The position numbers were made by a program, and so were the translations under genes. Source: Bacteroidales bacterium (lineage in GTDB: Bacteria > Bacteroidota > Bacteroidia > Bacteroidales > WCHB1-69). From it: a stretch of 64,000 bases of DNA. The DNA is taken from the NCBI GenBank assembly GCA_017525245.1, contig JAFXTE010000077.1, positions 1 through 64,000 on the forward strand, given 5' to 3'. Shown in pieces: positions 19,242 to 37,103 of the stretch (positions within the stretch are counted from its first letter, which is position 1; every line of letters starts with the position of its first letter). Under the pieces are notes generated by a model. That model was not told the DNA's origin, ran no database searches, and worked only from the letters and a program-made list of their open reading frames with translations.

Positions 19242-19419
19242 CATCCTGCGTTAGCGGCAGAATCTCTTGTGTCGCTGGGATTATAAGGGGATAGCCTGCG
19301 ATTGTGAAGAAACTTCCCCGCATATCGTTTTCCAAGACAGGACTATTTCAGCCCCAATAGTGGAGGTCCTTTCTCTTTCTGAAAAATTATTGAACAATGT
19401 CTGGATATTAAATAAAATG

Positions 19420-19690: not shown

Positions 19691-20333
19691 TTACATTTTC
19701 CCCTTCGCCAGCTTCTTTGCCGTATCAACTTCCTTGATGAGCTGTTCTGATGTAGGAAGATACAATTTGTATTCGCTGGCGAGAATTGTTTTGTTGTCTT
19801 CGGGCAGGGCTTTCTGGAATGCGCTGCTTGCGGGCAATAGCCAGAACGCTCTCTTTATCGTTGCTTAAGAGTAGTCGTTCATAGAGCATGGAATTGATTT
19901 GCCGCTCCGTTTCCCGCGCTGTCCACGCATTGTTCACCGATTCCAACTCATAATACTCGCGCTTGTCAGGATCTGCGATAGCGGTAAGTAGCTTATATTG
20001 ACCCCAGTTCAATTGCGTCCGCAGTGCGGACGCAATTGGGTAAAGTCGGTAAAATGCCCTTGCACGCTCTAATTGTCTTGGTCCAAATCCGCTGCCATAG
20101 TCAGGTTTCAATCGTGTGGAAAGGTTCTTAATCAGATAGGTGCCATAATCGGCACGCTCTTTCCCTTGTTGTTCTTCTTCAAAGATGCGTTTCCCCAAGT
20201 TCCAGTACATCTGCACTCGACAGAAGTCCACGCTTCGCACAGCGTTGCTGCGTGCTGCTTCTATTATTTGACAGGCATCTTGGTAGAGTGAGTCTATGGG
20301 TGTGAAGGTCATAAGATTTGTTTCTTTCTTCAT
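19691..20333 (-). pseudogene. DUF1016 (YhcG-like) nuclease, broken by an internal deletion
   Basis: The first 170 codons encode a normal DUF1016 N-terminal domain: WNLGKRIFEEEQQGKERADYG..., then SVNNAWTARETERQINSMLYERLLLSNDKE. After ...VLAIARK the frame changes and stops at 19725. In the next frame the expected C-terminal end of the PD-(D/E)XK nuclease domain reappears (ALPEDNKTILASEYKLYLPT) and stops at 19691. About 100 residues, including the nuclease core, are missing between these parts. A deletion with frameshift is the simplest reading, so the gene is dead. It is a typical defence-island passenger beside the operon at 21.7-33.5 kb. Confidence 0.8.
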
Positions 20334-20584
20334 CCTAATCTATATAATATTTCCGCCGACAAACATACAAAATCCTTACGTGAAAAACAACCGAAAATAA
20401 TGTTTAACTTGTTAAAAATCAAATATATAAAAATAACATTTTTCGATTTGAAAGATGTCGTTTTCGTGAACAAAATTGCAGATTGCAGAAAAATTGCAAA
20501 GCCCCGGGCATCCACTCGTAGGGTGGGGCGGTGTGAATTTTGGAAGATTTTGGCGATAGTACGTTCTCTGGCGAGGCGGAGGTT

Positions 20585-21050
20585 CCGTTTGGTAGAAAAA
20601 TGTCCTGCTGATCCGACATTCATGGATCGGATAAGACGGCGGCGGGAATGAACGGCACTACCAAGCGTGCTGGAAGCAGGCCATCTTAATAACCCCACAT
20701 AAGGCCGACAGGTCGCAGTGTGGGGTACGCGGACGGTTCGCGGGACTACGTGTCGGAGACACGCCACAAAGTCGCCAGCAGTAGCGTGTCTCCGACATGC
20801 CTCCAGGCGACCGCTTCCGCCACCCCACACAAGCGCAACGGAGTGGAGCGCAGTATGGGGTTATTAGGATTCCGTGCCTCCGGCACGAGTCTGCAACCGG
20901 AACTGTCATCCCTTGTCATCTACTACTGGCAAATTGGCAAAGGAAGACGATGATATGACCATGACGATGCGATGTTATCGGCACGGGCAAGCGTTTTCGA
21001 CAGGGTGGGGTGGCCAAACGGAATGGCGGTGAGTTGTTCGGTAAGGTTTG
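20585..21050. repeat. Long non-coding direct repeat, copy A
   Basis: Starts CCGTTTGGTAGAAAAATGTCC and ends near GGCCAAACGGAATGGCGGTG. It matches the block at 21160-21621 over nearly its whole length with scattered substitutions. Inside are GATCCGACATTCATGGATCG, two CCCCACA/TGTGGGG-type stems (20693-20728 and 20823-20862), GTGTCGGAGACACG / CGTGTCTCCGACAT inverted repeats, and a GTGCCTCCGGCAC hairpin. Frames through it are not conserved between copies as protein. The 250 bases before it (20334-20584) are AT-rich with no gene I can support. Confidence 0.85.
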
Positions 21051-21159
21051 CGCGTGCGGGTTGTCGATGAGTGACGGCAAATGCCCGTTCGGCAATCTCT
21101 GTGCTGATGGTAACAGCATGATAGTCAACCCCATAAATAACGGAAGAGCCACCACCAGT

Positions 21160-21621
21160 CCGTTTGGCAGAAAAATGTCCAGCTGATCCGACATTCATGG
21201 ATCGGATAAGACGGCGGCGGGAATGAACGGCACTACCAAGCGTGCTGGAAGCAGGCTATCTTAATAACCCCACATAAGGCCGACAGGCCGCAGTGTGGGG
21301 TACGCGGACGGTGTGTGAGACCGCGTGTCGAAGACACGCCACAAAGTCGCCATGCTGTAGCGTGTCTCCGACACGCCTCCAGGCGACCGCCTCCGCCACC
21401 CCACACTGCGCTCCACTACGTTACGCTTGTATGGGGTTATTAGGATTCCGTGCCTCCGGCACGAGTCCGCAACCGGTACAGTCCTTCTATTGTCTTCTAT
21501 TGGTAAATCGGAGGAGAGAGACGATGAAATGACCGTGACAATGTGATGTCATCGGCAAGGGCAAGCGTTTTTCGTTATGGCGCGGTGGCCAAACGGAATG
21601 GTGGTGCGTTGTCTGGTAGCT
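21160..21621. repeat. Long non-coding direct repeat, copy B
   Basis: Same order of landmarks as copy A, offset by about 575 bases: CCGTTTGGCAGAAAAATGTCC at the start; GATCCGACATTCATGGATCG; CCCCACATAAGGCCGACAGG...TGTGGGG; CCCCACACTGCGCTCC...TATGGGGTTATTAGG; GTGCCTCCGGCAC; and the end GGCCAAACGGAATGGTGGTG. It ends just downstream of the HNH nuclease stop codon (21656), so it lies at the 3' end of the defence-like operon. Confidence 0.85.
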
Positions 21622-21655
21622 TTTGCTGTTGCAGGGTTGTTCAGACAAACTGGAA

Positions 21656-22600
21656 TCATCTAAAGCCCCAGCGTGCACGATGCGCAGCGAGGCAATCTCT
21701 GTTTGGATAGAATGATTCGTTATACGGGAGTTTAATGGGTTGGCCTTCGAATTGGGACAAAGCGAACACAGAATTTGAGTCTTCAGCAAAATTACAGTTA
21801 ACTAAAACAGTATAGTCATCAGAAATGGAAATTAGTCCTCTGTCAAAAGCACGATGCAGGTTTGGACAAAGAGCAATGCCATTGCCAACAGAATCATCGT
21901 GGGATTCGGAGAATGGGATAATATGGCAAGCATCCACCATACTGATACTTTTATCAAAAGAGTTTAGTCGTAGCCTTGAAATGGCACAAGTGTGGTCATA
22001 GATTTGAGGAATCACCACCTTGAAGGCTTGTCCTCGCATGTAGTTGTTTTCGTCAGCATCCCTTGCGACCATTTTATTCTTTTGAACTCCCGAATCTACT
22101 ATTTGTTTGATCAATGCCGTTTCAAGCGGTGGAATTGAAATTTGAGTATATGAACAGTATGGTATGTTAAAGTATTGTTCCACCAACGTTTTTTCAAGGA
22201 TGGTGTTGCAAACAGGATTCATCATAAAGTCAGACAAACTTCTGTCAATGATTGCAAATGCAACACAGTCGTTTAGTTGGAAAAAACTACCAATTCCCGT
22301 AGGAATGCATTTGCCCGGTTTTGGTACAAGTTTCCAAAATGATTCGCTGCCCAAATGGAAGAATGGGTAGTAGAAGGTCGGGTTAAAGGGCACTGAAGCA
22401 GGTACGAGCTTGATCCATAGATGTTTGAATGTATGGAAAAGCAACGGCGATGGTTTGATTTCAGAGGACAACAAATCACCGCTTTGAAATAAGCGGAGAA
22501 CACTCAATAGCAGAATTGGCTTGTGCGGGGCACCGCCATTTTCTCTGTTTCTCCTCAGGGTGGAAAAAGCTTTCTGATAATAAGCCAAATCTTTCGTCAT
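21656..22600 (-). CDS. HNH endonuclease with SBD-like N-terminus
   Basis: 314 residues. The C-terminal third is an HNH nuclease: Cys near 206, DACHIIPFSES near 223-233, then NGIALCPNLHRAFDRGLISI, with the His/Asn/His catalytic pattern and zinc-site cysteines. The N-terminal half has APHKPILLLSVLRLF at residues 24-38 and FYYPFFHLGSESFWKLV near 95-111. That pattern (PHKP-LLL, then YPF..L....W) matches, from memory, sulfur-binding domains of type IV enzymes such as ScoMcrA that cut phosphorothioate DNA. It is the last gene of the nine-gene operon, 53 bases after the previous gene. The likely role is restriction of a particular DNA state. Binding specificity is inference. Confidence 0.8.
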   Translation of the reverse strand: MTKDLAYYQKAFSTLRRNRENGGAPHKPILLLSVLRLFQSGDLLSSEIKPSPLLFHTFKHLWIKLVPASVPFNPTFYYPFFHLGSESFWKLVPKPGKCIPTGIGSFFQLNDCVAFAIIDRSLSDFMMNPVCNTILEKTLVEQYFNIPYCSYTQISIPPLETALIKQIVDSGVQKNKMVARDADENNYMRGQAFKVVIPQIYDHTCAISRLRLNSFDKSISMVDACHIIPFSESHDDSVGNGIALCPNLHRAFDRGLISISDDYTVLVNCNFAEDSNSVFALSQFEGQPIKLPYNESFYPNRDCLAAHRARWGFR

Positions 22601-22653
22601 CCTACCGGCAAATCACGGCGGCAAAATTAAGAAAAATTTGTAAAAGAAGATTC

Positions 22654-23220
22654 TTATAATTCTTCTGGGAGTTCGTCTTCTTCGTCAGGAATTTTCGTAT
22701 CAAAAGCCAAGAAAACCTCTAAAAATGCTGTTTCTTTGTAAAAACAATTAGGATCATCAAGCATCTTATCTTCTATAAAATGGAATCCCCAATTGGCATA
22801 TTCCTCCATCGTCTTCATAAGCATATCAACTGCTTTTCGGGAAGTCATTTCCCCTTTTTCCAAAGCGATGAAATCAATGTCGGTGCGAGCGACAAGGGCG
22901 GTGAATAGGTACTCTCGGAGTTTTGGATAAGCCTTCCTTCCCTTAACAGAATCCAAATTACCCCAATATTGGATAGGCTGACCAAAAGTCTTACGTTTTT
23001 GGGTATCTTCAATGAGTGGTCTTCTTTGGTCAAAATACAAACCCATAAAGAAAGCGACAATAAATATTTCATAACCACCACCGAATATCTTGCCTCTTTC
23101 TTCACGCAATGATGTTGCACCACGACCATACTCACAAAAGATTTTAATGATGTCTTCGTATCTCTTTTCCCATTGTGGGTTACGACTCGCCCACAAATCA
23201 TATATTTTTTCTGTTGCCAT
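22654..23220 (-). CDS. Conserved-looking 188-aa protein of the defence operon
   Basis: 188 residues, soluble, starting MATEKIYDLW. A hydrophobic patch GGGYEIFIVAFFMGLYFDQRRPL (residues about 47-69) is followed by a polar, helix-rich region and an acidic tail (EEDELPEEL). The pattern of a short hydrophobic helix ending in G(F/Y)...RRPL reminds me of small dnd-associated proteins and of DndE-sized partners, but I cannot assign a family. It starts 22 bases after the DndD-like gene and precedes the HNH gene by 53 bases. It could be a DNA-binding or structural subunit. Confidence 0.65.
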   Translation of the reverse strand: MATEKIYDLWASRNPQWEKRYEDIIKIFCEYGRGATSLREERGKIFGGGYEIFIVAFFMGLYFDQRRPLIEDTQKRKTFGQPIQYWGNLDSVKGRKAYPKLREYLFTALVARTDIDFIALEKGEMTSRKAVDMLMKTMEEYANWGFHFIEDKMLDDPNCFYKETAFLEVFLAFDTKIPDEEDELPEEL

Positions 23221-23242
23221 AATGGATATATTTGTATTATCT

Positions 23243-25429
23243 TTATAATAGAGAATTCTTTACGATTTCAATTGTTGTTTGGATAGTCTCAATCTTATTT
23301 TCGTCAAAAGGTTCAACTTTTTTAATTCGATAAACAGAACAATTTAACTTATTTATAGTTTCCATATCCAATTTTTTTTCTCCTGTCTCATTATCTAATA
23401 TCAGCAGATCTTTGGTAGCAATTACACATTGTTTATCAATTTGATCAATGACATTATAGAAAATATCTCTTTTATAATTGCCAAATGAAGATGTTGGCGC
23501 ATCAAAAATTAACGGATAGTCCTGTTCGCGTTTTAGCGTGGTGATTTGTGAAATAGCAAATAAAACAGACATATACATAGTTGTCTTCAACGCGCCATTC
23601 GGGTTTTCAATTCGAGTGTTATTGTCGCTATATAATTCGATTCGTGCAGAATTATTGATTGTTTTTCTGATGCGGATTATGCCATAAAAATCGTTCTTGT
23701 TCAATTTTTTTAGATACTTGTTTGATTCTGCCTCAAGCATTTGGAGGAAATTATTGATGTTTTGTTCTTTCGCATTAGCAAATGCTTTGGTTATTCTTTC
23801 AAATGCAGTATGAACTCGCTGATAAACCTGCGTCATTGAGCTCCCTGGTGTAAGTTGAGACAATTTTTCTTGTATCTCTGCCTTCAAACTCTCCTTGAAT
23901 TTTAAAGTGGTTTCTAATTCAGAAACACGACTTTCATAGCGACTTTTTGTGTCGAAGAAACCTCTTAAATCCAATATATTCTTATCTAGTAATTCTGCAG
24001 TCGAACCTGATTGCACCAGTAAATCACTTTGCTCTTGTTCCAATTCTTTTAACTGTTTCTCAACTTCTGCTAATTCTTCTTTCCTTGTGTTTACAAACTC
24101 CAAACAATCCGTAATCGTCGTTGCAATTTTTGAAATTTCTTGCTCATTATCTCCACTTAATCTGATCTGGCGAGAATGTAATTCATTGATGAAAGAATTG
24201 ACAAATAGGGGTTTTTCATCGTCTTCTTTCGTATTAGAATTGATATTAGCTTCTTCTGCTATATGAGCAAGATATTCATTAAGTTTATTACACATGAATT
24301 TGTAAGCGTCTGAATCTTTAGGGGCAGGACGACCACAAACCTTACATATTTCATCATCAATCATTTCTTTCATTGTTGCCTCATCGGGCAAATTCCACGG
24401 CAATGGGACAGCATCATTAGCTAGTTTCTGAATTCTCGAAATAGCCTCCCGTTCACCAGCTTTTTTTGCACGGCGTTCTGTTTCTTGCTTGTCAAGTCTT
24501 CTTTTTTCTTTGCTTAAAGCAGATACTTTTGCAGAAAACTCTTTTATGATAGGAGGAAAAGAACGCAAAATCCAATATTCATCCAACAAATTAGTATTAT
24601 ACTCGCAAGATGACAAAGCAAGTAATCTTACACGCTTGTCTTTAAGACCTTTTATGCGTTCTTTTATTGCTTGATAGCGTTCTGTTGTTTCTTGATTCTT
24701 TTCTAGATTTTCCAACTCTGAGGAAAACTTATTGATGGAAATCTTCTTTTGATTAAGTTCTGTTTTAATGCTCTGAATATCGTTTACAACATCAGTTAAT
24801 TGGGCGTTCAGTTCTTTTGCTTGTTTTGATACTTTTCTGTCGTTTTGCAATTCGCGACTGGTTGCACGTGCAGAACTTTGTTCAAAACTTGATGTCAAAT
24901 CAACCAATTTATCAAAATCTCGAATTCCCGAAAAAGTATCGACCAGGGTTTTCAATGCAGTGTCATTGTCAAACACATTAAGTTCATTTTCACCTTTAAA
25001 CAAACAGTATTTTCGTATTACAGGCTCAAAGCACATATTTAATAGTATATCACCAGCAACTCTACGGCGTTCAGAACCGTCTACAACATACCCGATAAAT
25101 TTGTAATCCTTTGTGCGTATGTTGTCAGTGGTTGTTTTTTCAAAGGTGAAACATTTCTCTATCTCTTTTTCGCCATCATGTTCAAAGCTTATATTTACAG
25201 CAACCTCATCACTCTCTCCTATTCTCAATTCTGATTTTCGCTTTTCAGAAATGTGTGATTCTTTTCTGTTCTCACCTGTTGTGTCGAAAAGCCATTCCAA
25301 TGCTTCAAATAAGGTGGTTTTCCCATCGCCATTATCTCCGATTACTAATGTCAGACTTTTTGATAAAGAAAGGTGATTGTCACCATAATAACTGCGAAAG
25401 TTCTTGATTTGTATTTTTTTTATAATCAT
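23243..25429 (-). CDS. DndD-like SMC/Rad50-type ATPase
   Basis: 728 residues. Walker A GDNGDGKTT at 31-39, long coiled coils at about 190-330 and 400-570, a zinc-hook-like CKVCGRP near 361 in the middle, and a Walker B region DYPLIFDAPTSSFG near 640. This is the Rad50/SbcC architecture shared by DndD, the ATPase of DNA phosphorothioation, whose exact role is thought to be nicking or DNA-structure handling. Its start overlaps the 77-aa gene stop by 4 bases (ATGA-type coupling). Given the DndC-like gene in the same operon, DndD-like is the best call; a generic AAA_23 defence ATPase is the alternative. Confidence 0.82.
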   Translation of the reverse strand: MIIKKIQIKNFRSYYGDNHLSLSKSLTLVIGDNGDGKTTLFEALEWLFDTTGENRKESHISEKRKSELRIGESDEVAVNISFEHDGEKEIEKCFTFEKTTTDNIRTKDYKFIGYVVDGSERRRVAGDILLNMCFEPVIRKYCLFKGENELNVFDNDTALKTLVDTFSGIRDFDKLVDLTSSFEQSSARATSRELQNDRKVSKQAKELNAQLTDVVNDIQSIKTELNQKKISINKFSSELENLEKNQETTERYQAIKERIKGLKDKRVRLLALSSCEYNTNLLDEYWILRSFPPIIKEFSAKVSALSKEKRRLDKQETERRAKKAGEREAISRIQKLANDAVPLPWNLPDEATMKEMIDDEICKVCGRPAPKDSDAYKFMCNKLNEYLAHIAEEANINSNTKEDDEKPLFVNSFINELHSRQIRLSGDNEQEISKIATTITDCLEFVNTRKEELAEVEKQLKELEQEQSDLLVQSGSTAELLDKNILDLRGFFDTKSRYESRVSELETTLKFKESLKAEIQEKLSQLTPGSSMTQVYQRVHTAFERITKAFANAKEQNINNFLQMLEAESNKYLKKLNKNDFYGIIRIRKTINNSARIELYSDNNTRIENPNGALKTTMYMSVLFAISQITTLKREQDYPLIFDAPTSSFGNYKRDIFYNVIDQIDKQCVIATKDLLILDNETGEKKLDMETINKLNCSVYRIKKVEPFDENKIETIQTTIEIVKNSLL

Positions 25430-25659
25430 ATATTCGATTTTAAAAAGTTACTAACTTCATTGTAAATTTCTCTTTCTGTGGCATTTTGTTCATTTCGGTA
25501 AATGATTTGAGCAATGGCTTGAATTACAGGAATGTCAGAATCCAACGCATCTGATATTAAACTGTAATCATCGGGATTGTAGCCATAGAAATTAACAAGC
25601 TGCCCATCAGCAATCACAGCTTGCAAAATTTTATCGCAATTTGTTTGATACTTACTCAT
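25426..25659 (-). CDS. 77-aa protein of unknown function in the defence operon
   Basis: 77 residues, starting MSKYQTNCDKILQAVIADGQ, mostly helical, no recognisable domain. Coupled on both sides: it begins 6 bases after the helicase stop and its stop overlaps the DndD-like start by 4 bases. That tight fit argues for a real gene whose product is needed in proportion to its neighbours. It may be a small subunit of the helicase or SMC complex. Confidence 0.65.
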   Translation of the reverse strand: MSKYQTNCDKILQAVIADGQLVNFYGYNPDDYSLISDALDSDIPVIQAIAQIIYRNEQNATEREIYNEVSNFLKSNI

Positions 25660-25665
25660 AGTGCA

Positions 25666-27933
25666 CTAATTAAATATGGATAAATTATAATGATTCAATA
25701 CATCTTGTAATTCAGTAATGGTGTTGTTCAGATTCTCCGACAGTAATGCAAAATCTCGAACTCTTTTCAACTCGCTTTCTACAAGCCCTTTTTCTAATGT
25801 ATAACATTCACCTTCAAACACATTATCCGGAACAACAATGAGATCGTGTATAACAGCGAAACGTTTGTCTTTGTGCGTGCGCAGAACACGGCCACGACGT
25901 TGGATGAATTGACGCGGGTTTCCTGTACTCGCACAGAAAATAGCCAATTCGCTTCTTGGCACATCGATACCCTCGTCCAAACATTTCATCGAGGTAAGCA
26001 CATCGATGCTACCATCAGCAAACTCTTTGAGCATGGCATCCCGGTCGGTGGATTCAGAGGTGAACTGGCGGACGACGATATGAGAATCCAAGTCGCGGAC
26101 AATGCGGGTGAAATCGTCAATAAGATGCTCGGTTTCGGGATCCGTTGCAATGGTGTCTAACTGGTCGAAAATGTCCGCCTCGTAGTTGTCGGGCATATTG
26201 CCCTCCGGTACATAGACTAACGTATATTTCAGACTGCCCCTTTCTAACATTCGCTGTTGGAGAATCTGCTGGAAAACAGTCAACTTGTTGACCGCTTTAT
26301 GAATGATGCGTTTGCGTCTCAACAAGAGCATTTTCAGCATCTCCTGACTCTTTTCGTCTTGATAACCCATCATTTTTGCGATCTTCCCAGAAAGTTCAAC
26401 GTAGTCATCCATTTCGTTCTCGGTCAGACGGACAATGTGAGGATAGTAGTAATAACGGCACAATGCACCTTTCCGGATCGCTTCGTCCATTGTGTACTCG
26501 AACGTATAGTGGTCATCACAACCGAAAAAATCCATCAGCTTCCGGTTACCTATTTCGTCATATTGGCGTTCTGGTGTGGCGGAAAGACCAATTCGCCGCA
26601 AATACTTTATCTCTGGCAAGCGCTTGACCGTCAATCCACCACCCATGTTGTGGGCTTCGTCCGCAATAAGCAGCAATTTGCTTTTCGGAAATTGGTTCAA
26701 CTCCATGAATACTTCGGAACGCACAAAAGAAGCATACGTGGATATGATGATGTAAGACAATTTGTTGCTGCTGTTACTCAATTCGAGCAATCTCAGATTG
26801 GCAATAGCGGATTTCCATCTGTTATATTTGGAACAGACTTTAATTATATTGCTGAAATTAAATTTTTTACACTCGACTTCCCACTGCTCTACAAGCGTGA
26901 TAGTTGGAACAAGAATAATGGCCTTGTAAAAATCAAACTTCTTGTATATCTCCAACAAACAGTTCAAAGCCGTAATAGTTTTACCAGTTCCTGTTGCCAT
27001 AGCGAACAATCCCTTTTGTCCGTTGTTCTTCCAATTCTCGAACGCTTGCTTCTGATAATCTCTCGGACCGGATTTATATGGGAAACAAGGTTCGTGATTT
27101 TGGAGAATTCCGCTTCCTATTTTTGCTTTTATTTTCTCAATTTCTCTCTCAACCTTGATTTTGGCTATTCCCAATGCTTTAATCACAGTCTGGGGCAAAC
27201 TTTTGACAGAAATGTCTTGTTGAATGAATTTATACTCATCTTCCAAAAGTTCTCTAAGTTCTTTATTCTTGAAAGCTCCTTCTATGCGTGTTCTAACCTT
27301 ATCGGTAGGAATAAACACAACGCTTTCATCTTTACCCGTGAAAACGAGTTCGAAATCATCCATTAGCGAATTAATCGTAGCCGTAGAAGTGTCTCCGTCC
27401 CAATCACATGAAACGGTTAAACTTTCGAGATTGTCAATCAACGCCGATCGGGAAAAATTACATGATCCATCAAAGCCCACTTTGTTCAAGCCGTCGCTAA
27501 AAACACCTGTTTTCGTATGGGAAATTCCAACGCCCTCTTTGGGAGCAACAATCCTTATCTCCAAACGATTGTTGCGGATTAACCATGCTAAGCAGTCAAA
27601 AAAGTGGGTATCTCGTTCCGACAATGTATTCTTTAATTGTTCAATATTTGTAATATCAAAATATGGTATTGGAACATCCAATTCTCCGTTGGCAATCGCC
27701 TTCTTGTCTTCTTCAGTCAGAATGTCATTCACAATCAATCTCATACGACCTCCATTGTACAAGAACGAAGCAAAACCGTATGATAACACATTGATGGCTG
27801 ATGAGGAAAAGAAACCGAGCATCAAATCGAATTGGGTTGAATTGCACAAACAATCAGAGAAGAAACCGACAGGTTCCCACTCGGTACGCGACTTGTATCG
27901 CCGATGAACTGGAAAATTTACTTCTTTAAGCAT
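25666..27933 (-). CDS. PLD-like nuclease fused to SF2 helicase
   Basis: 755 residues. The N-terminal region has a phospholipase-D-type motif: SHTKTGVFSD near 137-146, then GFDGSCNFSRSAL, matching HxK...(D/G)SxN. The rest is a superfamily 2 helicase: Walker A ATGTGKT near 315, ADEAH near 423, GLSATPERQ near 445, and motif VI QRRGRVLRT near 677. PLD-SF2 fusions (ResIII-like) occur in several defence systems, where they translocate on and cut DNA. The gene starts 1 base after the acidic protein gene and ends 6 bases before the 77-aa gene. It is the most probable effector or translocase of the system besides the HNH protein. Confidence 0.87.
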   Translation of the reverse strand: MLKEVNFPVHRRYKSRTEWEPVGFFSDCLCNSTQFDLMLGFFSSSAINVLSYGFASFLYNGGRMRLIVNDILTEEDKKAIANGELDVPIPYFDITNIEQLKNTLSERDTHFFDCLAWLIRNNRLEIRIVAPKEGVGISHTKTGVFSDGLNKVGFDGSCNFSRSALIDNLESLTVSCDWDGDTSTATINSLMDDFELVFTGKDESVVFIPTDKVRTRIEGAFKNKELRELLEDEYKFIQQDISVKSLPQTVIKALGIAKIKVEREIEKIKAKIGSGILQNHEPCFPYKSGPRDYQKQAFENWKNNGQKGLFAMATGTGKTITALNCLLEIYKKFDFYKAIILVPTITLVEQWEVECKKFNFSNIIKVCSKYNRWKSAIANLRLLELSNSSNKLSYIIISTYASFVRSEVFMELNQFPKSKLLLIADEAHNMGGGLTVKRLPEIKYLRRIGLSATPERQYDEIGNRKLMDFFGCDDHYTFEYTMDEAIRKGALCRYYYYPHIVRLTENEMDDYVELSGKIAKMMGYQDEKSQEMLKMLLLRRKRIIHKAVNKLTVFQQILQQRMLERGSLKYTLVYVPEGNMPDNYEADIFDQLDTIATDPETEHLIDDFTRIVRDLDSHIVVRQFTSESTDRDAMLKEFADGSIDVLTSMKCLDEGIDVPRSELAIFCASTGNPRQFIQRRGRVLRTHKDKRFAVIHDLIVVPDNVFEGECYTLEKGLVESELKRVRDFALLSENLNNTITELQDVLNHYNLSIFN

Positions 27934-27934
27934 A

Positions 27935-28288
27935 TTAATTCTCTTTTTCTTTTAAAAACAATTCAATACCTTTAGCCACAAAAACATCCACTTCCTCATC
28001 AGTCATTTCATCATAACAAAAGGACTCATCTTCTGAACAATCACCTATTACATCCTCTGGATATAGATGTCCTTTGGGCCACATAAACTCTTCTCCAACG
28101 GATTCTGCTATTTTGCTAATCGAAGGAGTTCCATCTTCTTCGAAAAACTCTGCTCTTTGACAACAAACATCCTCTTCAGACATTTCTTCAACGTATTCAG
28201 TCCAGGAGTTGTATAATTCAATCGCCCGATTATACACTGTATTGGAAATAAGTCCCCCAACTTTTAAAAACAACTCGGATTTATTCAT
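27935..28288 (-). CDS. Small acidic protein of the defence operon
   Basis: 117 residues from the ATG at 28286-28288, which has AGAG six bases upstream; an earlier ATG at 28318 would overlap the DndC-like gene and gives a poor extension. The protein is strongly acidic (many Asp/Glu, e.g. YVEEMSEEDV and CSEDESFCYDEM) with several cysteines. No domain recognised. Acidic small proteins in such operons can be DNA mimics or inhibitors of their own nuclease, but nothing in the sequence proves that. It is followed 1 base later by the helicase gene. Confidence 0.6.
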   Translation of the reverse strand: MNKSELFLKVGGLISNTVYNRAIELYNSWTEYVEEMSEEDVCCQRAEFFEEDGTPSISKIAESVGEEFMWPKGHLYPEDVIGDCSEDESFCYDEMTDEEVDVFVAKGIELFLKEKEN

Positions 28289-28296
28289 AAGCATCT

Positions 28297-29397
28297 CTAT
28301 ATAAAACAATTTGTACACATAATATCATCACCAAGTATATCAACGAGTGTGGCCCCTTTACTCTGTTTGCGATTCTCCTCCTGGCGCTTAATCACATCAA
28401 GTTTGATTTGACGCACTCTCTCGGGTCTACACAATTCTTTCAAGCTCTCATTTTGATTCCAGGTATAGCCATCTTTCTCGAATTCCATCGCTTTCTGATA
28501 TAGATCCGGATGTTGTTCATACAGCCAGACCCATTCGATCTTCTGTTGAAAAAAACAGAAGTAGCACCCTGAGCGACTGCGACAGTATGTGCCCGTTTTA
28601 CCGTCAACCTCAAAAGGAATCTCTTCATAATAGGCAGGAACACCGACTCCACTCTCCCTTAACAATCTGAAAATGTCATCTTTCACTAAGACATCTGTAT
28701 TGTCCAGCAATGGGAAATTATTCAATTGTCCTATAGGGTAGTCTGTCGTTTTCAAAAACTCAAACACGACGTGGTTGAACAATTTGACATCGTAATCAAG
28801 CAAAGCATTCATTTTCTTTGAGTAATAGAAATGCTTAGATAGAGGCTGTCTAACAGTCGTCATAATATCTTCTTTGAGAATAGTGTTTGGACAAAGACTA
28901 TCATAAATGGCAATTAGCTGTTCTAAATTATCGTTGTGAAGAATTTTGTTGACGACATCAATGCTCCAAATATTCTTACGAAAAGGAAATACTGCTTGAA
29001 TGTTCGGTTTCGAAGATATATACCCGTCCCTGTCCTCATCTCCTCGTATACCCACATACGAAACTGCCAAATCTTCTCCGACATATTTTTCAAATTCTGC
29101 CAATTTCATCTTCTGGGTACACCATCGAGCTTGGGGAGATGGAAGGAAACCACCATTTGCCTTGAGGAAATGATGAAATGGTGTTGGTTCAGGGCTGTCT
29201 TCGGCAGCTCTTAACTTGTTGATTTTTCCCAGATATGCTTCTAAACGATCTATCAACATTTCCGTTTCGGCAAGTTCACATCCCGTGTCCGAATTGTAGA
29301 ATTCTATAGGCAAAGACGGATACCGCTGTTTCATGTAGATAGCTAATGCGGCACTGTCTTTGCCTCCTGATATGCCCAATATGTGCCTGATTTTCAT
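28297..29397 (-). CDS. DndC-like PAPS-reductase-fold protein (putative DNA sulfurtransferase)
   Basis: 366 residues. The ATP-pyrophosphatase P-loop SGGKDS is at residues 10-15. Cysteines at 93 (RWCTQK) and at 272, 278 and 281 (CRSRSGCYFC) match the four-cysteine iron-sulfur cluster pattern of DndC, the enzyme that activates the DNA backbone for sulfur insertion. A further CxxC lies at the extreme C-terminus (361/364), which I do not recall from DndC. Its start overlaps the stop of the large ATPase gene by 4 bases. No cysteine desulfurase (DndA) is encoded nearby; a housekeeping IscS could supply sulfur. A BREX type 4 BrxP-like role is the main alternative, but no PglZ is present. Confidence 0.85.
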   Translation of the reverse strand: MKIRHILGISGGKDSAALAIYMKQRYPSLPIEFYNSDTGCELAETEMLIDRLEAYLGKINKLRAAEDSPEPTPFHHFLKANGGFLPSPQARWCTQKMKLAEFEKYVGEDLAVSYVGIRGDEDRDGYISSKPNIQAVFPFRKNIWSIDVVNKILHNDNLEQLIAIYDSLCPNTILKEDIMTTVRQPLSKHFYYSKKMNALLDYDVKLFNHVVFEFLKTTDYPIGQLNNFPLLDNTDVLVKDDIFRLLRESGVGVPAYYEEIPFEVDGKTGTYCRSRSGCYFCFFQQKIEWVWLYEQHPDLYQKAMEFEKDGYTWNQNESLKELCRPERVRQIKLDVIKRQEENRKQSKGATLVDILGDDIMCTNCFI

Positions 29398-32300
29398 TGT
29401 TTGATCTTTTTGTTGAGGATAGACAGTAAAGTGCAGACATCCAAATTGTTGTCTCCTGAGAGGAGTTGATTAATGCGCTCTTCTAATTTGGTTGACTTAT
29501 CCTTATCACTCTTAGGGAGGATGTATGTCTGCGTATGAAATGTTTCTCCCTTGCTAGAAACCATGTCAAATGAATATGCCTCAAAGCCTGTCAAATCATC
29601 TGTCTTTTTGGATATATCAGCATACTTTTCACATTCACGAAACATATAAACGAGATCATTCGAGAGTTTCTCTTCCTCCTCATCTTTAAGAGATTCCAAT
29701 TTATGGTCTAACACCACGTAACAAATGGATTGGAACCATAAAGTCCGATTATCATATTCTGTCATAACATGGTGGTAGAACTCTTTTAATTTGTCTGTCA
29801 AAAGGTATGTTTTAACCGATGACAATCTTTCTTGAACTTCTTGGACATACTTTTCGTAATCTCCATTTTGAAGTCCAAACTCATCGACGACCCGTTCTTC
29901 AATTCTGTCTATCAGTTGGCTATAGCAAGAACGGAGTTCTCTAATTGACCTGTGAATTAGAGCCCCATAACTTTCCAAAGACTTACTATCAGAAAGATTT
30001 CTCTTATCAAATCCTAAAGCTTCCGGCAAATCTTCAAAAAATGCCTTTTCCGGATCTTTGGCCGTCGCGAGAACGTTTCGGAAACGCTCGGTGGTCTGGT
30101 GGTCGAATTTTCGTGTATGTTTAGCATATTCATTTAGTCGCTTGTAAAAAAAGAGAAACGGCTTGATTGTTTCGATAAAATTATCCGTAGTTATTGATAA
30201 TTCCTCTCCCAAATTCACATACTTCCGATACTGGTTAAAGAAGTCAAGACTGACACCATCTAACGCAAATGCCTTAACTGTATAGTTTGAGGGCTGTCTT
30301 TGTAAGAGTTCAAAGAATGCCATATCAACAACAGGAATATAGGATCCCGTTGAGACATCATGCAGAGCATAATCTTGACGTTTAATAAACAAATATGTCG
30401 GCATCCAAAAGTCAATAAAACCTTGTTTCAGTTTGTATGGTTTTTGTGAAAGAAGTTTAATTAGTTCAGAAATTCGTCTTGGTTTATTAATCGTGCTTTT
30501 CAAGAAAGTCTCGCAGGCGTTCCACAGCGGCATAATTCCATCGTTTTTTGGAGAATCGTGAAGGAAACCTTCTTTGTGCAGCCCAGTATTTTTCAACAAA
30601 GAGCAATAGATGGTCTTCTCTGGAGGAAACTTGTTCTCTTCAAATCCCAAGTCCGATTCCGAATGATGTTCCACTAATGCCGTGAGATAGTTCTTTTTAG
30701 CCAAAGATATGGTACTGCTCAGTTTTTGTCTGTTGAATAGTTCGTTGATGAGGACAGGTGTCTTAGAATAGATAGTGTCACAGACAAAGGACAACAACTT
30801 GTTGAAATCCATAAAGTTTGACACCTTGTATGTTTCACCCTGGAAAATCCAATCCACTTGACCTTTGTATGCGAACAGACAGTCACTGATTGCTTTGTTC
30901 AACAAGGTTTCCTCATATTCAACCAACTTTTCAATTTCATTATACGCAACACGATCCCCGTTTTTGTCTATCAAAACTTTCTCGAGAATGTATTTGTATT
31001 TCTGAATGTTGTACAAATGATCAACCAAATTCTCTGTGTTTTTGAAATACACATAGATAATAGCTTCTCCATCATTTTCACGACTAAAATCCTTGACTCT
31101 TTCCAAAAAATCAGGAGATTGATTGAAAATCAGTTCTATAAAGCCATCGGTATCACCTGTGGGCGACAGTAATATTGGTTCTTCCCTTATTTCATATTCA
31201 AAAAAGCGAGGTGTCCCTTTTTGATAATAATGTGCTTTAACGGGAGCTATGCGTTTGTTTATGAAACTTCTTAAATCATCAATGAAATCCGCAGGACGTG
31301 ACACAATTGATCCTGCTCTGAGTACTTCCGCTTCTAAATCGACATCTGTGCCATCAAACAGAAGCAATCGACTTTTATATTCAGCATATCTGATGATTTT
31401 TGCATTACGAAGACGTTGAATGATGTATGTCGCGTTCTCCACATCCATAGCATTGGTAGCATAGTCGCACATCTGTGATTCAGAAAGACGGAAACTTGCC
31501 TTTCCGAATAAATTCAACAATCCAATAGCTTTCAATATCTTGACCGCATTCGACATATCAATAGCGTTATCCCATGGCAAACCTTCCGCACGCTCGACAG
31601 CCACTTGCATAGAGCTCCAACTCATAGAATCAGTATTTGCATCTTTCAGATATGAGTAGAAGTTGTAAACAATATAATCATAGACATTTGCAAGATTATA
31701 CGAACATCTTTCACTTGGTTCAAAATCCTGAATAGAATTGGAACCTCGGGTTGACAAGAAAGAGAAAAGGGATCGTTCGTTTTGACCATAACGATGGATG
31801 GCGGAAGTGATAGTGTAAGCAGAAAAAGCATCCAAGGGATATAGTTGCAATGCAGTCTCCTCGGAAAAAGTATTTGCTAAAAGTCCAGTTTCCTGAGAAA
31901 GTCGATACAGACGTTGTGCATTTGCTGTTTCTGAGTTATTATGGTCGTGCAAAAGTTGTTTAGAAGCCAAAAACAACAGTTGCTCTACAGGTTCCACAAA
32001 TGCTATTTCCATAAAACGTCCCTTGACTTTCTGCCACTCGTTTTTTTGCGCTTCAGTCAAATCCTTTGAGTATGCGCCAAAATTTTGATGCAGTGTGGTA
32101 AGAAGTAAGATGTTTCTGGAAGGATGATTAACAAATTCCGCCAACTTTTGCATGAAGTACAATTCTCGCTCAGGATTGTTCTTCGCAGCGTGTTCCAAAA
32201 TTTTACCAAATTCATCCACAACTATTACCAAAAATTTATTCTCTGATTCTACTTTTCTGTAATAGGCTTTCAATTCATCAAGAACACTTTGTGAAGTCCC

Positions 32301-32630
32301 TTCTACATGCAATTTTTGCCCCAACAAAGTTGACAGTTCTTGGTAATCTCCAACAATATTAAGTATCATGTACCCTTTAGCGGATGAGAGATTCGATGAG
32401 TTTAATAGCCGTGGTTGCCTGTTCGTCCTTTTCAAATCGGACTCTAAAGCCAACAAAAAGCTCGACTTCCCTGTCCCGTATGTGCCAATTATAGTAAATG
32501 AGTGTATGCCGGATTTGTAGCCGTCAACAATTGCGCTAACGGATTTCAATCCATTAGGCGTGACAACGTATTGCATCGCGCTTGGGAAACCATCTTCTAT
32601 ATTTGCCGACAGACTAAAGGACTGATTCAT
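29394..32630 (-). CDS. Large P-loop ATPase of the defence operon
   Basis: 1078 residues. Walker A GTYGTGKSS at 49-57 and Walker B LVIVVDEFGK near 136-145 mark an AAA/STAND-type ATPase at the N-terminus. The remaining 800 residues are helical with no motif I can name. Large ATPases of this sort (in the style of BrxC/PglY or DUF499) form scaffolds in defence complexes. Its start overlaps the DUF4007 gene stop by 17 bases, and its stop overlaps the DndC-like start by 4 bases, so these three are translationally coupled. The function is probably ATP-driven loading or remodelling on DNA. Full-length and apparently intact. Confidence 0.78.
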   Translation of the reverse strand: MNQSFSLSANIEDGFPSAMQYVVTPNGLKSVSAIVDGYKSGIHSFTIIGTYGTGKSSFLLALESDLKRTNRQPRLLNSSNLSSAKGYMILNIVGDYQELSTLLGQKLHVEGTSQSVLDELKAYYRKVESENKFLVIVVDEFGKILEHAAKNNPERELYFMQKLAEFVNHPSRNILLLTTLHQNFGAYSKDLTEAQKNEWQKVKGRFMEIAFVEPVEQLLFLASKQLLHDHNNSETANAQRLYRLSQETGLLANTFSEETALQLYPLDAFSAYTITSAIHRYGQNERSLFSFLSTRGSNSIQDFEPSERCSYNLANVYDYIVYNFYSYLKDANTDSMSWSSMQVAVERAEGLPWDNAIDMSNAVKILKAIGLLNLFGKASFRLSESQMCDYATNAMDVENATYIIQRLRNAKIIRYAEYKSRLLLFDGTDVDLEAEVLRAGSIVSRPADFIDDLRSFINKRIAPVKAHYYQKGTPRFFEYEIREEPILLSPTGDTDGFIELIFNQSPDFLERVKDFSRENDGEAIIYVYFKNTENLVDHLYNIQKYKYILEKVLIDKNGDRVAYNEIEKLVEYEETLLNKAISDCLFAYKGQVDWIFQGETYKVSNFMDFNKLLSFVCDTIYSKTPVLINELFNRQKLSSTISLAKKNYLTALVEHHSESDLGFEENKFPPEKTIYCSLLKNTGLHKEGFLHDSPKNDGIMPLWNACETFLKSTINKPRRISELIKLLSQKPYKLKQGFIDFWMPTYLFIKRQDYALHDVSTGSYIPVVDMAFFELLQRQPSNYTVKAFALDGVSLDFFNQYRKYVNLGEELSITTDNFIETIKPFLFFYKRLNEYAKHTRKFDHQTTERFRNVLATAKDPEKAFFEDLPEALGFDKRNLSDSKSLESYGALIHRSIRELRSCYSQLIDRIEERVVDEFGLQNGDYEKYVQEVQERLSSVKTYLLTDKLKEFYHHVMTEYDNRTLWFQSICYVVLDHKLESLKDEEEEKLSNDLVYMFRECEKYADISKKTDDLTGFEAYSFDMVSSKGETFHTQTYILPKSDKDKSTKLEERINQLLSGDNNLDVCTLLSILNKKIKQ

Positions 32631-33483
32631 AATAACGATCTAAAACGTTCATTTTATCTAAAGAATGGATAATTTGTAATTGTCGTACACCTGCCACATC
32701 ATTATATGCCAATGCGTCGGGATATAAATCAGCAAGCTTCTTTGCCATTTCCAGTATCTCAAGATTATTCATACAAAATACAAGACCAAGTTCTTGTAAT
32801 TGGTCAAAAGAAATGCTAAAATTGCCTGAATCAACATCAGAAAGAAGAGCAAAGAGAAAACAATGCGGTGGAATCTGACGTTTCCCATCAACATTAAAAT
32901 AATAGGTCTTATTTTCTTCTTTTTGACGAAGTAAATCAAGGTCTATAAGCAGGTTGGAATATTCTTCGTGAGATTGAGGTGCATGGGGTAGAGTATAATT
33001 CTGGAAGAGGACTCCTATGTCTTTCTTTACCGTGTTTGGATTGAACAGCTTTTCCGATCCTTGTTCAACCATCTTCCTTTTGATGAAATTCAGTATGTGT
33101 TCACGTTCAAATTCTTTTCTTTCTTTTTGGTAATCAACAAAGAACAAAGAATATAACGATGCAATACGGCTATGGACAATGAGAAAATGCAACAGCCAAA
33201 GGGTTCCTGAGTCTTCCAAGAATGGGTCTTTCCCTGTTTCACTGTCAAAAAGATAATCCGCCATAGCTGTTGGTTTGTTGTCTTCAATTAGAGAAAAGGC
33301 CTTTAACCAATAGCGAATGGCAGTAACCATATTCTTGCCAACACCCAAATGTATTACAGCATCTGGCGAGTTAAAGTCATGACCATCCTTAATAAAATCA
33401 TACCCCTTCTTCAGCCATAGTGATTTGCAAGGGAATGATTCATGCCCTGAGAACACATATCGGTTTTTTTCCTGTTTGTCCAT
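32614..33483 (-). CDS. DUF4007 family protein
   Basis: 289 residues from the ATG at 33481-33483. The signature YVFSGHESFPCKSLWLKKG (residues 9-27) and LGVGKNMVTAIRYW near 47-60 are those of DUF4007, a family I know mainly from defence islands, including loci with DndC-like proteins. The N-terminal third looks like a winged-helix or DNA-contacting domain. It is the first gene of the operon and overlaps the large ATPase by 17 bases. The frame is open further up to 33648, but that stretch shows no family similarity and is treated as leader. Confidence 0.85.
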   Translation of the reverse strand: MDKQEKNRYVFSGHESFPCKSLWLKKGYDFIKDGHDFNSPDAVIHLGVGKNMVTAIRYWLKAFSLIEDNKPTAMADYLFDSETGKDPFLEDSGTLWLLHFLIVHSRIASLYSLFFVDYQKERKEFEREHILNFIKRKMVEQGSEKLFNPNTVKKDIGVLFQNYTLPHAPQSHEEYSNLLIDLDLLRQKEENKTYYFNVDGKRQIPPHCFLFALLSDVDSGNFSISFDQLQELGLVFCMNNLEILEMAKKLADLYPDALAYNDVAGVRQLQIIHSLDKMNVLDRYYESVL

Positions 33484-33733: not shown

Positions 33734-33741
33734 CAAAAATA
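33734..33741 (-). promoter_or_regulatory. Candidate -7 box of the nine-gene operon
   Basis: Reads TATTTTTG on the minus strand. If used, the transcript would carry a leader of about 240 bases before the DUF4007 start codon. The 33484-33906 gap contains no other gene I can support. It includes short repeats of AATAAAG and the divergent start region of the next lipoprotein gene. Confidence 0.4.
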
Positions 33742-33906
33742 GCATTTTTCCGCATACATTCTGCCAAAAACGCACATTTTTTTGCACCCATACCCCTCTC
33801 GCTGACACTTCCTGTCATTGCGTTTTTCCCAATCCACTGCCACACGGTGTACACCGACGTGTTGTTATTTTGCATCGTCAAATCAATCACCGAAAAAAGA
33901 AACATT

Positions 33907-34604: not shown

Positions 34605-35507
34605 TCACTCCCGCATCATCCTCACCCGATACCGCACGAACTCCCGTAACTCCTCCCCGCCAAGGATCTCCACGTCATCGTAGAGACCCAGGATGAAGCG
34701 GGTGACACCCTCCAGGCGGCAGACCTCCGTCTCCAACAGGTAGCGGCCGCCCTCCTCCGCCTTCAGGAACGGCTCCGACAGCGGGTATTCCTCCGTCAAT
34801 AAGCTCGCCGCACGGGTGGAGAGGCGCAGTCGCACGGGGAATCGCTGAGTGCCGTGCAACCGGAAGATATCGACGTAGCCCGTCTCGTGTTTCTCTTCGT
34901 AACGCCAGCCGGTTTCCAGTACTTCCACCCGCTGGATGCGCGTCACTTTGAAGGTCTTCACCATTTTGGACCCAGGCTCGTAGCACCAGACTTGGTCATG
35001 GCCAGACGTGAAATCGTAGGGTTCCACTAAACGGTCGGTGGTAGAGTTGCTGTGCCCCGATCGGTAACCCACCAGCACCGCCTGTCGCTGTCCCTCTATG
35101 GCCGTTGTCAGCTCGTGGATGGTGCGTTGAGTGCGTTTGCTCACCCCCATGTCGGTGATAACCTTGTAGTCATAGACCGCGTACAATTTCTTCTTCAGCA
35201 GTTCCTTTGACTTGGTGTTCGACTCAATGGAGTCGATGGCGGCACGCAGCACTAATTCCTCTTCCTCAGAGAAGTGTAGTAGTTCGCGGAGATGCCGCGA
35301 CATCTTGTTGGCTGCCGTTTCTATGCGATAGGCGTTGTATTCGTTCTTCTTGACGGCAAAACCCGCTTCGCGGAACGTGTCAATGTAACGGAAGAAGGTA
35401 CGCTCGCAGAAGCCAAAACGCTCGCAGATTTCCTCCTTGTTCATATATCGGTTGTTGGCGAGGAGCATTAGTAGTTGCAGCTCGCGCACGATTCTCGGTT
35501 GGTCCAT
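34605..35507 (-). CDS. WYL-domain transcriptional regulator (YafY/PafC-like)
   Basis: 300 residues. An N-terminal winged helix (residues 1-65, with NKEEICERFGFCERTFFRYIDTF) is followed by a WYL domain (about 140-210; here the signature region is VLVGYRSGHSNS...EPYDF...QVWCYE) and a WCX-like C-terminal part. WYL regulators are thought to sense nucleic-acid or nucleotide ligands and often control stress, DNA-repair or phage-defence genes. Its nearness to the island is suggestive only. It has its own -7 box at 35530-35537. Confidence 0.88.
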   Translation of the reverse strand: MDQPRIVRELQLLMLLANNRYMNKEEICERFGFCERTFFRYIDTFREAGFAVKKNEYNAYRIETAANKMSRHLRELLHFSEEEELVLRAAIDSIESNTKSKELLKKKLYAVYDYKVITDMGVSKRTQRTIHELTTAIEGQRQAVLVGYRSGHSNSTTDRLVEPYDFTSGHDQVWCYEPGSKMVKTFKVTRIQRVEVLETGWRYEEKHETGYVDIFRLHGTQRFPVRLRLSTRAASLLTEEYPLSEPFLKAEEGGRYLLETEVCRLEGVTRFILGLYDDVEILGGEELREFVRYRVRMMRE

Positions 35508-35714: not shown

Positions 35715-37103
35715 TCACCTTTCCACCCTGGAAACCACTTCCCCGCAATAAAACCTCGTCACCAAGCTGTCGCCTTGCGCGAGCCCGGCGGCGTCGGTCA
35801 CCGCCTTGCCGTCCTTTAACGTGATGCTGTAGCCGCGCTTCAGCACGTTCTCCGGACTCAGCAGCTGCAGCTTCTCCTCCATGGCCGTGAGGTCGCGGGT
35901 CTTGCGCTTCAGCAGGGCACGGCACTCGCGGGGCAGCCGCTCCTCCACGGTCACCAAATGCTGTCGCGACCGCTGCAACTGCAACTGCGTCTCGTTGCCC
36001 GCCTCGCGCATCAACTCTCTCAGCCGGAAATTCTGGCTTGTCATGAACTCTTTGCTCTTGAAAACCAGATTCTTGTAGGTGTCGGCAAGGTTGCTCCGAT
36101 GCCAGTCCAGCGCCTTCGGCAACTTGTACTGCAGGGAGGCCTCCACCTTGAGCATCTCCTGACGGCAGTCCGTGATCTGCTGCTGCACCCGTTGCACGAT
36201 GCGGCCGATGGCGTCGTCAACCTGCTCGTCGAAGTGGCGGAAGGCGGCCAGCAGCGAGAAGGCCACATCGGTGGGGGTGATGAAGTGGGCGTGCGCCACC
36301 ATGTCGGTGACCGTCAGGTTGGTGGAATGCCCGATGCCGGTGAGCACGGGCAACGGGAAGGTGGCCACGCTGCGGGTCAGCTCGTAGTCGTCGTAGCAGC
36401 TCATCCCCACGTCGCCGCCGCCACCGCGCACGATGACCGCCACGTCGAAGTCGTCCTGCCGCATCGCGATCTCCCCGAACCGCCCCATGATTCCCGTGAT
36501 GGCCTTGTCTCCCTGCAAGATGCTGGGAAACAGTTCCGTACGGAAACGGTAACCGTACTCGTTCTGCTGCAACGTCTGCATGAAGTCGCTGTAACCCTTG
36601 CTGGTCTCCACGGAGATCACCGCCACGCGCTTCGGCAGCAGCGGCATCGGCAGGTTGCGGTTCCGCTCGAAAAGACCCTCCTTCTTGAGCCGCGCGATCA
36701 CCTCCTGACGGTTCTTCACCATCTCCCCGAGGGTGTACGTTGGCTCGATGTCCTCGATGTGCAGCGCCAAGCCGTGCTTCGGACTGAACTGGATGGTGGC
36801 GAGGCACAGGATGCGGATGTTCTCTTTCAACGGCTCGCCGGTGATCTGCTCGAACCGCCGGTTGATGTCTTGGAAATGACTGGACCAGATGATGGCTCGC
36901 ATCTCGGTCTTGATGGTATTCCCCTCGCGCTCAACGAGTTCCGGATAGCAGTGACCGCTGTAAGGATAGTAGTTCAGCTTCAGGATTTCCGCCTTGATGT
37001 AATAGGGTCGGGTATAGGTGCGCTCAATCATCTTGTGGATGCTCATGGCCACATCCGACAAGGAATAAACGGTATGGTTGTTGAAGGTTTCGCGTTCGGA
37101 CAT
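35715..37103 (-). CDS. xseA: Exodeoxyribonuclease VII large subunit
   Basis: 462 residues. An OB-fold domain at the front (residues 10-105, with YYIKAEILKLNYYPYSGHCY) is followed by the ExoVII large-subunit domain, including PKRVAVISVETSKGYSDF near 160, VRGGGG near 230 and GIGHSTNLTVTDMVAH near 262. The C-terminal part has long helices. The enzyme degrades single-stranded DNA from both ends and needs the small subunit XseB, which I do not see adjacent. Bacteroidota versions have HST where others have HET/HES. An ATAACCA-rich spacer precedes it. Confidence 0.93.
   Translation of the reverse strand: MSERETFNNHTVYSLSDVAMSIHKMIERTYTRPYYIKAEILKLNYYPYSGHCYPELVEREGNTIKTEMRAIIWSSHFQDINRRFEQITGEPLKENIRILCLATIQFSPKHGLALHIEDIEPTYTLGEMVKNRQEVIARLKKEGLFERNRNLPMPLLPKRVAVISVETSKGYSDFMQTLQQNEYGYRFRTELFPSILQGDKAITGIMGRFGEIAMRQDDFDVAVIVRGGGGDVGMSCYDDYELTRSVATFPLPVLTGIGHSTNLTVTDMVAHAHFITPTDVAFSLLAAFRHFDEQVDDAIGRIVQRVQQQITDCRQEMLKVEASLQYKLPKALDWHRSNLADTYKNLVFKSKEFMTSQNFRLRELMREAGNETQLQLQRSRQHLVTVEERLPRECRALLKRKTRDLTAMEEKLQLLSPENVLKRGYSITLKDGKAVTDAAGLAQGDSLVTRFYCGEVVSRVER

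Follow-up and report, generated by a model that had tools for sequence, protein, structure and literature searches.

The DNA phosphorothioate (PT) mark placed by SspABCD is, in the described cases, 5'-CpsCA-3'. Among 2,678 surveyed loci of the writer genes sspBCD, SspFGH accompanied 196, SspE 199 and the two together a further 36 (PMC8092258), while the Ssp system has no DndE cognate according to PMC10853773, which cites Krishnan et al. 2020 (10.1093/nar/gkaa726) for CxC systems and Ssp. In haloarchaea, PbeABCD depended on PT for its action and left viral DNA intact; among 553 pbeAC cases in the same study, 320 occurred without dndCD (PMC6459918). The DNA analysed here is a stretch of 64,000 nucleotides from a Bacteroidales bacterium (contig JAFXTE010000077.1; the window), in which a nine-gene operon joins sspBCD to genes of PbeABCD type. 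Drawing on the observed identities of the genes, their repeated linkage, the conservation of catalytic motifs and the swapping of modules, we regard this operon as very probably one composite PT restriction-modification system, SspBCD-PbeABCD. As most surveyed sspBCD loci lack a known partner and 320 of 553 pbeAC cases lack dndCD, the pairing may explain part of both. PMC7464106 could be a partial earlier sighting of it, reporting pbeA-D in about 10% of the Vibrio and Mycobacterium strains studied, with dnd and ssp writers pooled, and a helicase-bearing 'dndEi' in Prevotella and Bacteroides.

Gene content and identity of the two modules

The operon comprises nine tightly packed minus-strand open reading frames (ORFs) at 21656..33483 of the window, in the order SspB-SspC-SspD, acidic orphan P0004, PbeA-(PbeB)-PbeC-PbeD and P0009, a nuclease with a sulfur-binding domain (SBD) and an HNH domain. 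Neighbours are separated by gaps of 1-53 bases or overlap by 4-22 bases: SspB and SspC overlap by 17 bases, SspC and SspD by 4, and SspD and P0004 by 22 with a GTG start, an overlap that disappears if a later in-frame ATG is the start. The initial annotation had the nine genes and the gaps right and gave overlaps of 4-17 bases, a range that the GTG start extends. Downstream of P0004 the spacings are, in order, gap 1, gap 6, overlap 4, gap 22 and gap 53. The operon is AT-rich, with a GC fraction of 0.385 against 0.518 in the remainder of the window.

SspB, SspC and SspD match their PADLOC models with 312, 1206 and 290 bits, respectively. The protein first recognised as DUF4007 (Pfam, 6e-73) is SspB, also matching solved SspB structures, and the 1078-aa ATPase, previously without a family name, is SspC, whose Walker A glycines and lysine and DEF motif are kept in 96% of 27 aligned rows. 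In SspD, the SGGKDS motif and C272, C278 and C281 are invariant in 20 aligned rows and C361/C364 are present in 90% of them, in agreement with the motif and cysteine pattern recorded initially. The accompanying label of DndC-like has to be given up, with 25 bits for DndC in PADLOC and 20 bits for TIGR03183 in NCBIfam (cut-off 290). Additionally, DndC is absent from the host genome at 1e-30, and no DndD match was obtained in the operon with NCBIfam, the PADLOC DndD score of the zinc-hook ATPase (41 bits) lying under its PbeC score. The locus is therefore not a canonical dnd locus, as had been proposed. Neither SspE nor SspFGH is among the PADLOC matches listed for the nine proteins (best 25 for P0005 and P0007).

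DUF4007, SspC-like and PAPS-reductase parts are common to the window and BREX type 4 (PMC12839542), and SspD also matches Pfam PAPS_reduct (0.003), so that a BREX type 4 or sulfate-assimilation (CysH) operon was considered. It is extremely improbable: BrxC reaches 199 bits against 1206 for SspC, BrxP 17 against 290 for SspD, and BrxL and PglZ are not among the same listed PADLOC matches. Both candidates were rejected on profile scores (Pfam, PADLOC, NCBIfam), which place the SGGKDS protein with SspD and not with CysH.

On the restriction side, the protein described as a PLD-SF2 helicase is PbeA, with H139, K141, G156, S157, N159 and Walker A invariant in 16 aligned rows and HKD, GSxN and helicase motifs conserved. 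Pfam recovers the SF2 helicase, the PLD-like domain lying below its cut-off, and the NCBIfam model TIGR04095, 'DNA phosphorothioation system restriction enzyme', is matched below its own. An AAA match is also among the Pfam results for the operon. Identity to the 25 plasmid relatives listed is 23-36%, and no PbeA relatives matching the search patterns were found in viral contigs. The zinc hook of the supposed DndD-like ATPase, P0007, is confirmed, its CxxC being invariant in 16 aligned rows alongside a conserved Walker A, but the protein belongs with PbeC and not with DndD, with a weak PADLOC match to PbeC (75 bits) and a strong hhalign match to the PbeC set. Apart from the window, 14 loci have a relative of P0006 placed between PbeA and PbeC. 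The position and size of P0006 are as for PbeB, to whose set it gives a weak hhalign match. P0008, without a match among PADLOC models or PDB sequences, matches the PbeD set by hhalign; a direct assignment to DndE was rejected (P0008 family versus DndE 0.3%), consistent with the earlier statement that a clear DndE is absent. P0004, P0006 and P0008 have no PADLOC match of any kind.

Loci linked to dnd genes supplied most of the reference sets, the linkage being judged by DndC (in L062 by DndD and DndE); one annotated plasmid record (L078) also contributed. The PbeD set consists of one annotated dnd_assoc_4 protein and three proteins matching TIGR04062 below its cut-off, and the PbeB and PbeC sets each include one ssp-linked member (L058, L060). 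The matches to PbeA (1089 bits), PbeC and PbeD bear out the initial guess that pbe modules share families with the operon, and SspBCD and Pbe profiles together support the proposed DNA-thiolation modification and restriction system.

Table 1. Features of the operon and its upstream region (window coordinates)
Feature	Position	Strand	Evidence
SspB (DUF4007; predicted nickase/target recognition)	32614..33483	-	PADLOC SspB 6e-94; PF13182; PDB sequence search, SspB 6juf/6lb9 1.7e-15
SspC (Orc/Cdc6-type AAA+ ATPase)	29394..32630	-	PADLOC SspC 1206 bits, BrxC 199 bits; conserved motifs
SspD (PP-loop ATP pyrophosphatase/sulfurtransferase)	28297..29397	-	PADLOC SspD 4.9e-87; conserved SGGKDS and cysteines
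P0004, small acidic orphan, variable SspD-PbeA slot	27935..28318	-	Isoelectric point (pI) 4.1; without family
PbeA (P0005; HKD/PLD nuclease and SF2 helicase)	25666..27933	-	PADLOC PbeA 1089 bits; TIGR04095 405 bits, cut-off 600
PbeB-position small protein (P0006), 77 aa	25426..25659	-	Position in relatives; weak profile match to PbeB set, 61%
PbeC (P0007; CxC/zinc-hook ABC ATPase)	23243..25429	-	PADLOC PbeC 1e-21; hhalign 100%, 1.9e-55
PbeD-like (P0008; dnd_assoc_4 family cognate), 188 aa	22654..23220	-	hhalign to PbeD set 95.8%, 7e-9
SBD-HNH (P0009): sulfur-binding domain ~1-150 and HNH nuclease ~185-310	21656..22600	-	8h0l 3e-9 (PDB sequences); HNH_2
Bacteroidetes-type promoter-like site TTTG-N23-TATTTTTG upstream of SspB	33734..33768	-	Motif match only

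The promoter-like motif, whose consensus we take to be that of Bacteroidetes promoters, has 6 matches in the window against 1.6 expected by shuffling, a count of 6 being reached in 2 of 100 shuffles.

Recurrence and probable exchange of the paired modules

The writer-reader pairing of these two named modules is recurrent in the host phylum and is found on plasmids of another. Scanning genome contigs with SspC yielded 27 loci, whose records bear the titles Bacteroidales, Bacteroidetes, Prevotella, Prevotellaceae or Paludibacteraceae. PbeA lies downstream of SspBCD in 16 of these loci, PbeC/PbeD occur without PbeA in 2, and 9 have no Pbe genes; among these nine, 5 end in SspC, in SspD or about 0.3 kb from SspC, 2 have about 4 kb downstream and 2 have 10 kb. 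The seven-gene core repeats in identical order elsewhere, indicating that the core set is not a chance arrangement. The suggestion that all nine genes form one set holds for this core; P0004 has no relative in the loci and genomes searched, and P0009 does not adjoin these genes in most relatives.

The second survey covered 395 genomes of the host phylum, with cut-offs chosen after seeing the matches (PbeA >80 bits, SspD >100 bits) and with 2 candidates for PbeA and up to 6 for SspD scored per genome, so that weaker copies may be missed. Strong PbeA was detected in 11 genomes (nine full-length, one short at the N-terminus in G270 and a fragment in G376) and strong SspD in 21. Seven of the 11 carry strong SspD on the same contig within 10 kb, whereas 0.58 genomes with both genes would be expected by chance (hypergeometric p 1e-7, for these post hoc cut-offs), and the two modules face each other in 3 of the 7 (L057, L058, L059). 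The other three full-length PbeA genes have DndC within about 11 kb, DndC occurring in 12 of the 395 genomes at E up to 1e-30 and over its cut-off in 9.

Outside the host phylum the sampling consisted of plasmid records, not genomes, the plasmid search giving 43 PbeA records and, for SspD, the best 60 of 69 records. A Sphingomonadaceae plasmid (CP099618.1) carries an unbroken series of a cysteine desulfurase, SspB, SspC, SspD, PbeA, a 74-aa ORF, PbeC and a 148-aa ORF. PADLOC recognises SspA, SspB, SspC, SspD, PbeA and PbeC in this series and gives no match for the 74-aa and 148-aa proteins. On a Rhizobium indigoferae plasmid (NZ_CP140639.1), the same Ssp series converges on PbeA, 'phosphorothioation-associated protein 4', PbeC and one small ORF. 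Another eight pbeA regions on plasmids were inspected, and a near-identical operon is absent from the plasmid collection. Two Hymenobacter plasmids show other arrangements: in NZ_CP141190.1 (L076:11900-18363), the genes after SspBCD encode a helicase, an ATPase and a phospholipase D individually, like a split PbeA/PbeC, and an opposite-strand DUF262 protein comes next, whereas in NZ_CP110137.1 (L077:13986-16983) DUF262 and SIR2 proteins come after SspBCD.

A closely related chromosomal site is present in the rumen metagenome-assembled genome RUG13189 (L010, G395). Its left flank has 92-95% DNA identity to the window (12740-19355) and its right flank 94-95% (35721-37902), falling to 85% further right (41429-45766), but the systems between them are only 67% (SspBCD) and 71% (Pbe genes) identical. 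RUG13189 has a GHKL trio in place of P0004, and its Pbe part ends at PbeD with a repeat directly after it and no SBD-HNH match there. Given this contrast between similar flanks and divergent systems, the systems have probably been exchanged at one chromosomal site, with the Ssp-Pbe pairing kept in both alleles. The relatedness to this rumen genome is also the ground for regarding the host as a gut-type Bacteroidota.

Several neighbouring features of this site were recorded. Positions 20584-21640 hold two imperfect tandem repeat copies of about 575 bp, 85% alike, parts of which recur elsewhere in the genome, giving 20 matches overall; one such part also bounds the RUG13189 system. An ORF with a DUF1016 N-terminal domain (19725-20333) separates the repeat from the conserved left flank. 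RUG13189 lacks a DNA match to this ORF here and has one of 75% on a different contig; at the protein level the ORF matches, at 34%, a gene that L023 carries in its SspC/SspD slot. On the other side, a WYL-domain regulator (34605-35507) adjoins the operon; it has an 87% DNA match in L009 and none in L010, although L010 shares the exoVII gene beyond it.

Several points weigh against a single composite system. SspA is absent from the operon, and neither IscS nor SspA is among the 3 classified of the 12 aminotransferase-V (Aminotran_5) matches in the host genome, these best three being a SufS-type desulfurase, a TIGR01977 desulfurase and a phosphoserine transaminase. Strong PbeA is lacking in 14 of the 21 strong-SspD genomes, the PbeB and PbeD assignments are indirect, and in the literature consulted Pbe was tested only with double-strand PT (PMC6459918, PMC9239217). 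Finally, in a Mantel test of 12 loci with SspB, SspC, SspD, PbeA, PbeC and PbeD, gene distances correlate at 0.80-0.87 within Ssp and 0.68-0.88 within Pbe, but at only -0.10 to 0.33 between the modules, the two highest values at p 0.01-0.02. Such weak coupling fits communication through the DNA mark; two independent neighbours would fit too.

The latter explanation would place two independent systems side by side in a defence hotspot, SspBCD serving another reader and Pbe acting independently of PT. Beyond the nearly uncorrelated distances, it can draw on the occurrence of each module apart from the other and on the eight plasmid pbeA regions, 2 with dnd genes, 2 with a methyltransferase gene, 3 without a writer gene in view and 1 unannotated. 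The window genes, however, overlap or nearly touch, PbeA starts 6-11 bases past the end of SspD in L014, L016, L029 and L034 and 4 bases inside SspD in CP099618.1, and all nine full-length PbeA genes plus the short one of G270 lie within about 11 kb of SspD or DndC, the G376 fragment being the only exception among the 395 genomes. With the pairing persisting at one site although the alleles differ, independence is improbable. A tree of 33 PbeA rows requires two switches between Ssp linkage and Dnd linkage; several of its branches are long, which makes deep placement unsure.

Variable slots and the SBD-HNH nuclease

Relatives of the operon carry extra genes in three slots, with varying cassettes. 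PDC-M31-like pairs occupy the SspC-SspD slot; a DndB-like pair, a GHKL-ATPase trio, or a GmrSD_N (DUF262) protein with a protein kinase occurs between SspD and PbeA or after PbeD; and SBD-like proteins follow PbeD. In the window, P0004 and P0009 fill two of the variable slots. P0004, described initially as acidic, has 31 D/E against 10 K/R residues, is without a family in Pfam, PADLOC and NCBIfam, matches only itself in the 395 genomes and has no relative in the 27 SspC loci.

A 173-181-aa protein and a DndB-like protein (in L013, PF14072, 3e-32; DndB is a dnd gene) lie inside or beside ssp operons in L013:14317-16117, L020, L016, L034, L057 and L068. The GmrSD_N protein beside a protein-kinase gene in the ssp loci L021:14329-16453, L015, L024, L066 and L067 is possibly an SspE-like reader with kinase output. 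L018:16208-18499 encodes a 763-aa GmrSD_N plus GmrSD_C protein, an SspE-like domain make-up, after SspD, with Pbe genes absent from the 10 kb viewed. In L017:15094, L022:8290, L031:14170 and L032:14171, SspD breaks off after 31 or 303 matched residues and is followed by an ORF of family c5 (HNH_4 in L031), joined in L017, L031 and L032 by one of family c13 (methyltransferase and HIT domains in L031), possibly reflecting insertion or remodelling.

The SBD-like HNH nuclease of the initial annotation, P0009, is well supported: its C-terminal part matches HNH_2 (Pfam, 2e-13) and its N-terminal half the solved sulfur-binding domain SBDHga. H26, K27, Y78 and P79 occupy published sulfur-cavity positions of ScoMcrA (PMC6224610), while the fifth, A168, corresponds to H82. 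The NCBIfam model NF045808, 'phosphorothioated DNA-binding restriction endonuclease', gives 84.9 bits, below its cut-off of 180. P0009 looks able to read PT tags. The SBD-HNH enzymes that have been characterised both bind PT-DNA and cut it (PMC6224610, PMC7470945), so such a nuclease inside a PT-writing operon should harm its host. Harm would be avoided by a different recognition motif, by gating of the activity, or through licensing by the mark of the kind described for SspE (PMC9646914). The presence of this nuclease is the real puzzle of the locus.

One evenly balanced answer, compatible with the composite SspBCD-PbeABCD system, is that P0009 alone is a plain type IV enzyme directed against foreign DNA with other PT motifs and tolerated through a pocket blind to the host's own motif. 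Characterised SBDs are sequence-selective, SBDSpr failing to bind CpsCA (PMC7470945), and P0009-like proteins (E<1e-25) occur in 22 of the 395 genomes, the window's included, none of the 21 others having its relative close to a strong SspD, although three of them (G218, G249, G166) carry strong SspD at a distance. In most relatives the homologue does not adjoin ssp/pbe genes. Conversely, the window gene sits in the writer operon itself. N-terminal domains of SBD type that retain the H-K and P residues are also encoded after PbeD (L028) and after SspD (L073), though the relatives in L014 and L029 no longer have the His. Weaker relatives do occur near SspD: the one in L073 (G166) matches over its N-terminal part, the one in G211, about 8 kb away, over its HNH domain. 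Moreover, in Candidatus Chlorohelix a full-length homologue with 30% identity and Tyr for H26 adjoins genes of both pbe and dnd type; the PbeC annotation there covers only 112 aa.

Proposed mechanism and comparison with described systems

Extrapolating from characterised homologues, a host cysteine desulfurase would supply sulfur to SspD, SspB would select and nick the target with the SspC ATPase, and sulfur would enter the DNA backbone, probably on one strand as for SspABCD. PbeC-PbeD may then scan DNA for the mark, while PbeA (helicase and HKD nuclease) with PbeB would stop replication of, or cut, unmarked DNA; cutting is a prediction from motifs, since viral DNA stayed intact in the haloarchaeal work. 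P0009 could be an added reader effector drawn from a pool of interchangeable cassettes. A broader and distinctly tentative proposal is that SspBCD serves as a general single-strand PT writer into which defence modules including PbeABCD plug via the DNA mark and not via protein contacts, with the operon's own SBD-HNH reading and being licensed by its own mark, so that the mark would act as a trigger and not just as a shield. Should Pbe work with single-strand PT, what it recognises would be the mark, whichever writer made it. With an SBD nuclease encoded alongside a PT writer, the avoidance of self-destruction by PT readers becomes directly testable.

As to novelty, the main modules are already named, and the combination is what appears undescribed: no description of sspBCD and pbeABCD in one operon was found in the literature searched, the supplementary tables, most subscription papers and Krishnan et al. 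2020 lying outside the search.

Compared with known systems, the window resembles BREX type 4 in its DUF4007 protein, Orc/Cdc6-type ATPase and PAPS-reductase-type protein, but its scores for SspC and SspD are much higher than those for BrxC and BrxP. P0009 shares an SBD with cavity residues and an HNH domain with the PT-dependent endonucleases of ScoMcrA/SprMcrA type, yet it is encoded inside a PT-writing operon and misses the NF045808 cut-off. SspABCD-SspE and SspABCD-SspFGH (PMC9646914, PMC8092258) have the SspB, SspC and SspD writer in the same order, whereas the window lacks SspA in the operon and carries a Pbe restriction side in place of SspE or SspF/G/H among the matches listed. DndCDEA-PbeABCD of haloarchaea (PMC6459918), equivalent to the CxC ABC-ATPase/DndE system (PMC10853773), has PbeA, a small PbeB-position protein, PbeC and PbeD in the window's order; there, the difference lies in the writer, which in the window is SspBCD, whose described mark is single-strand.

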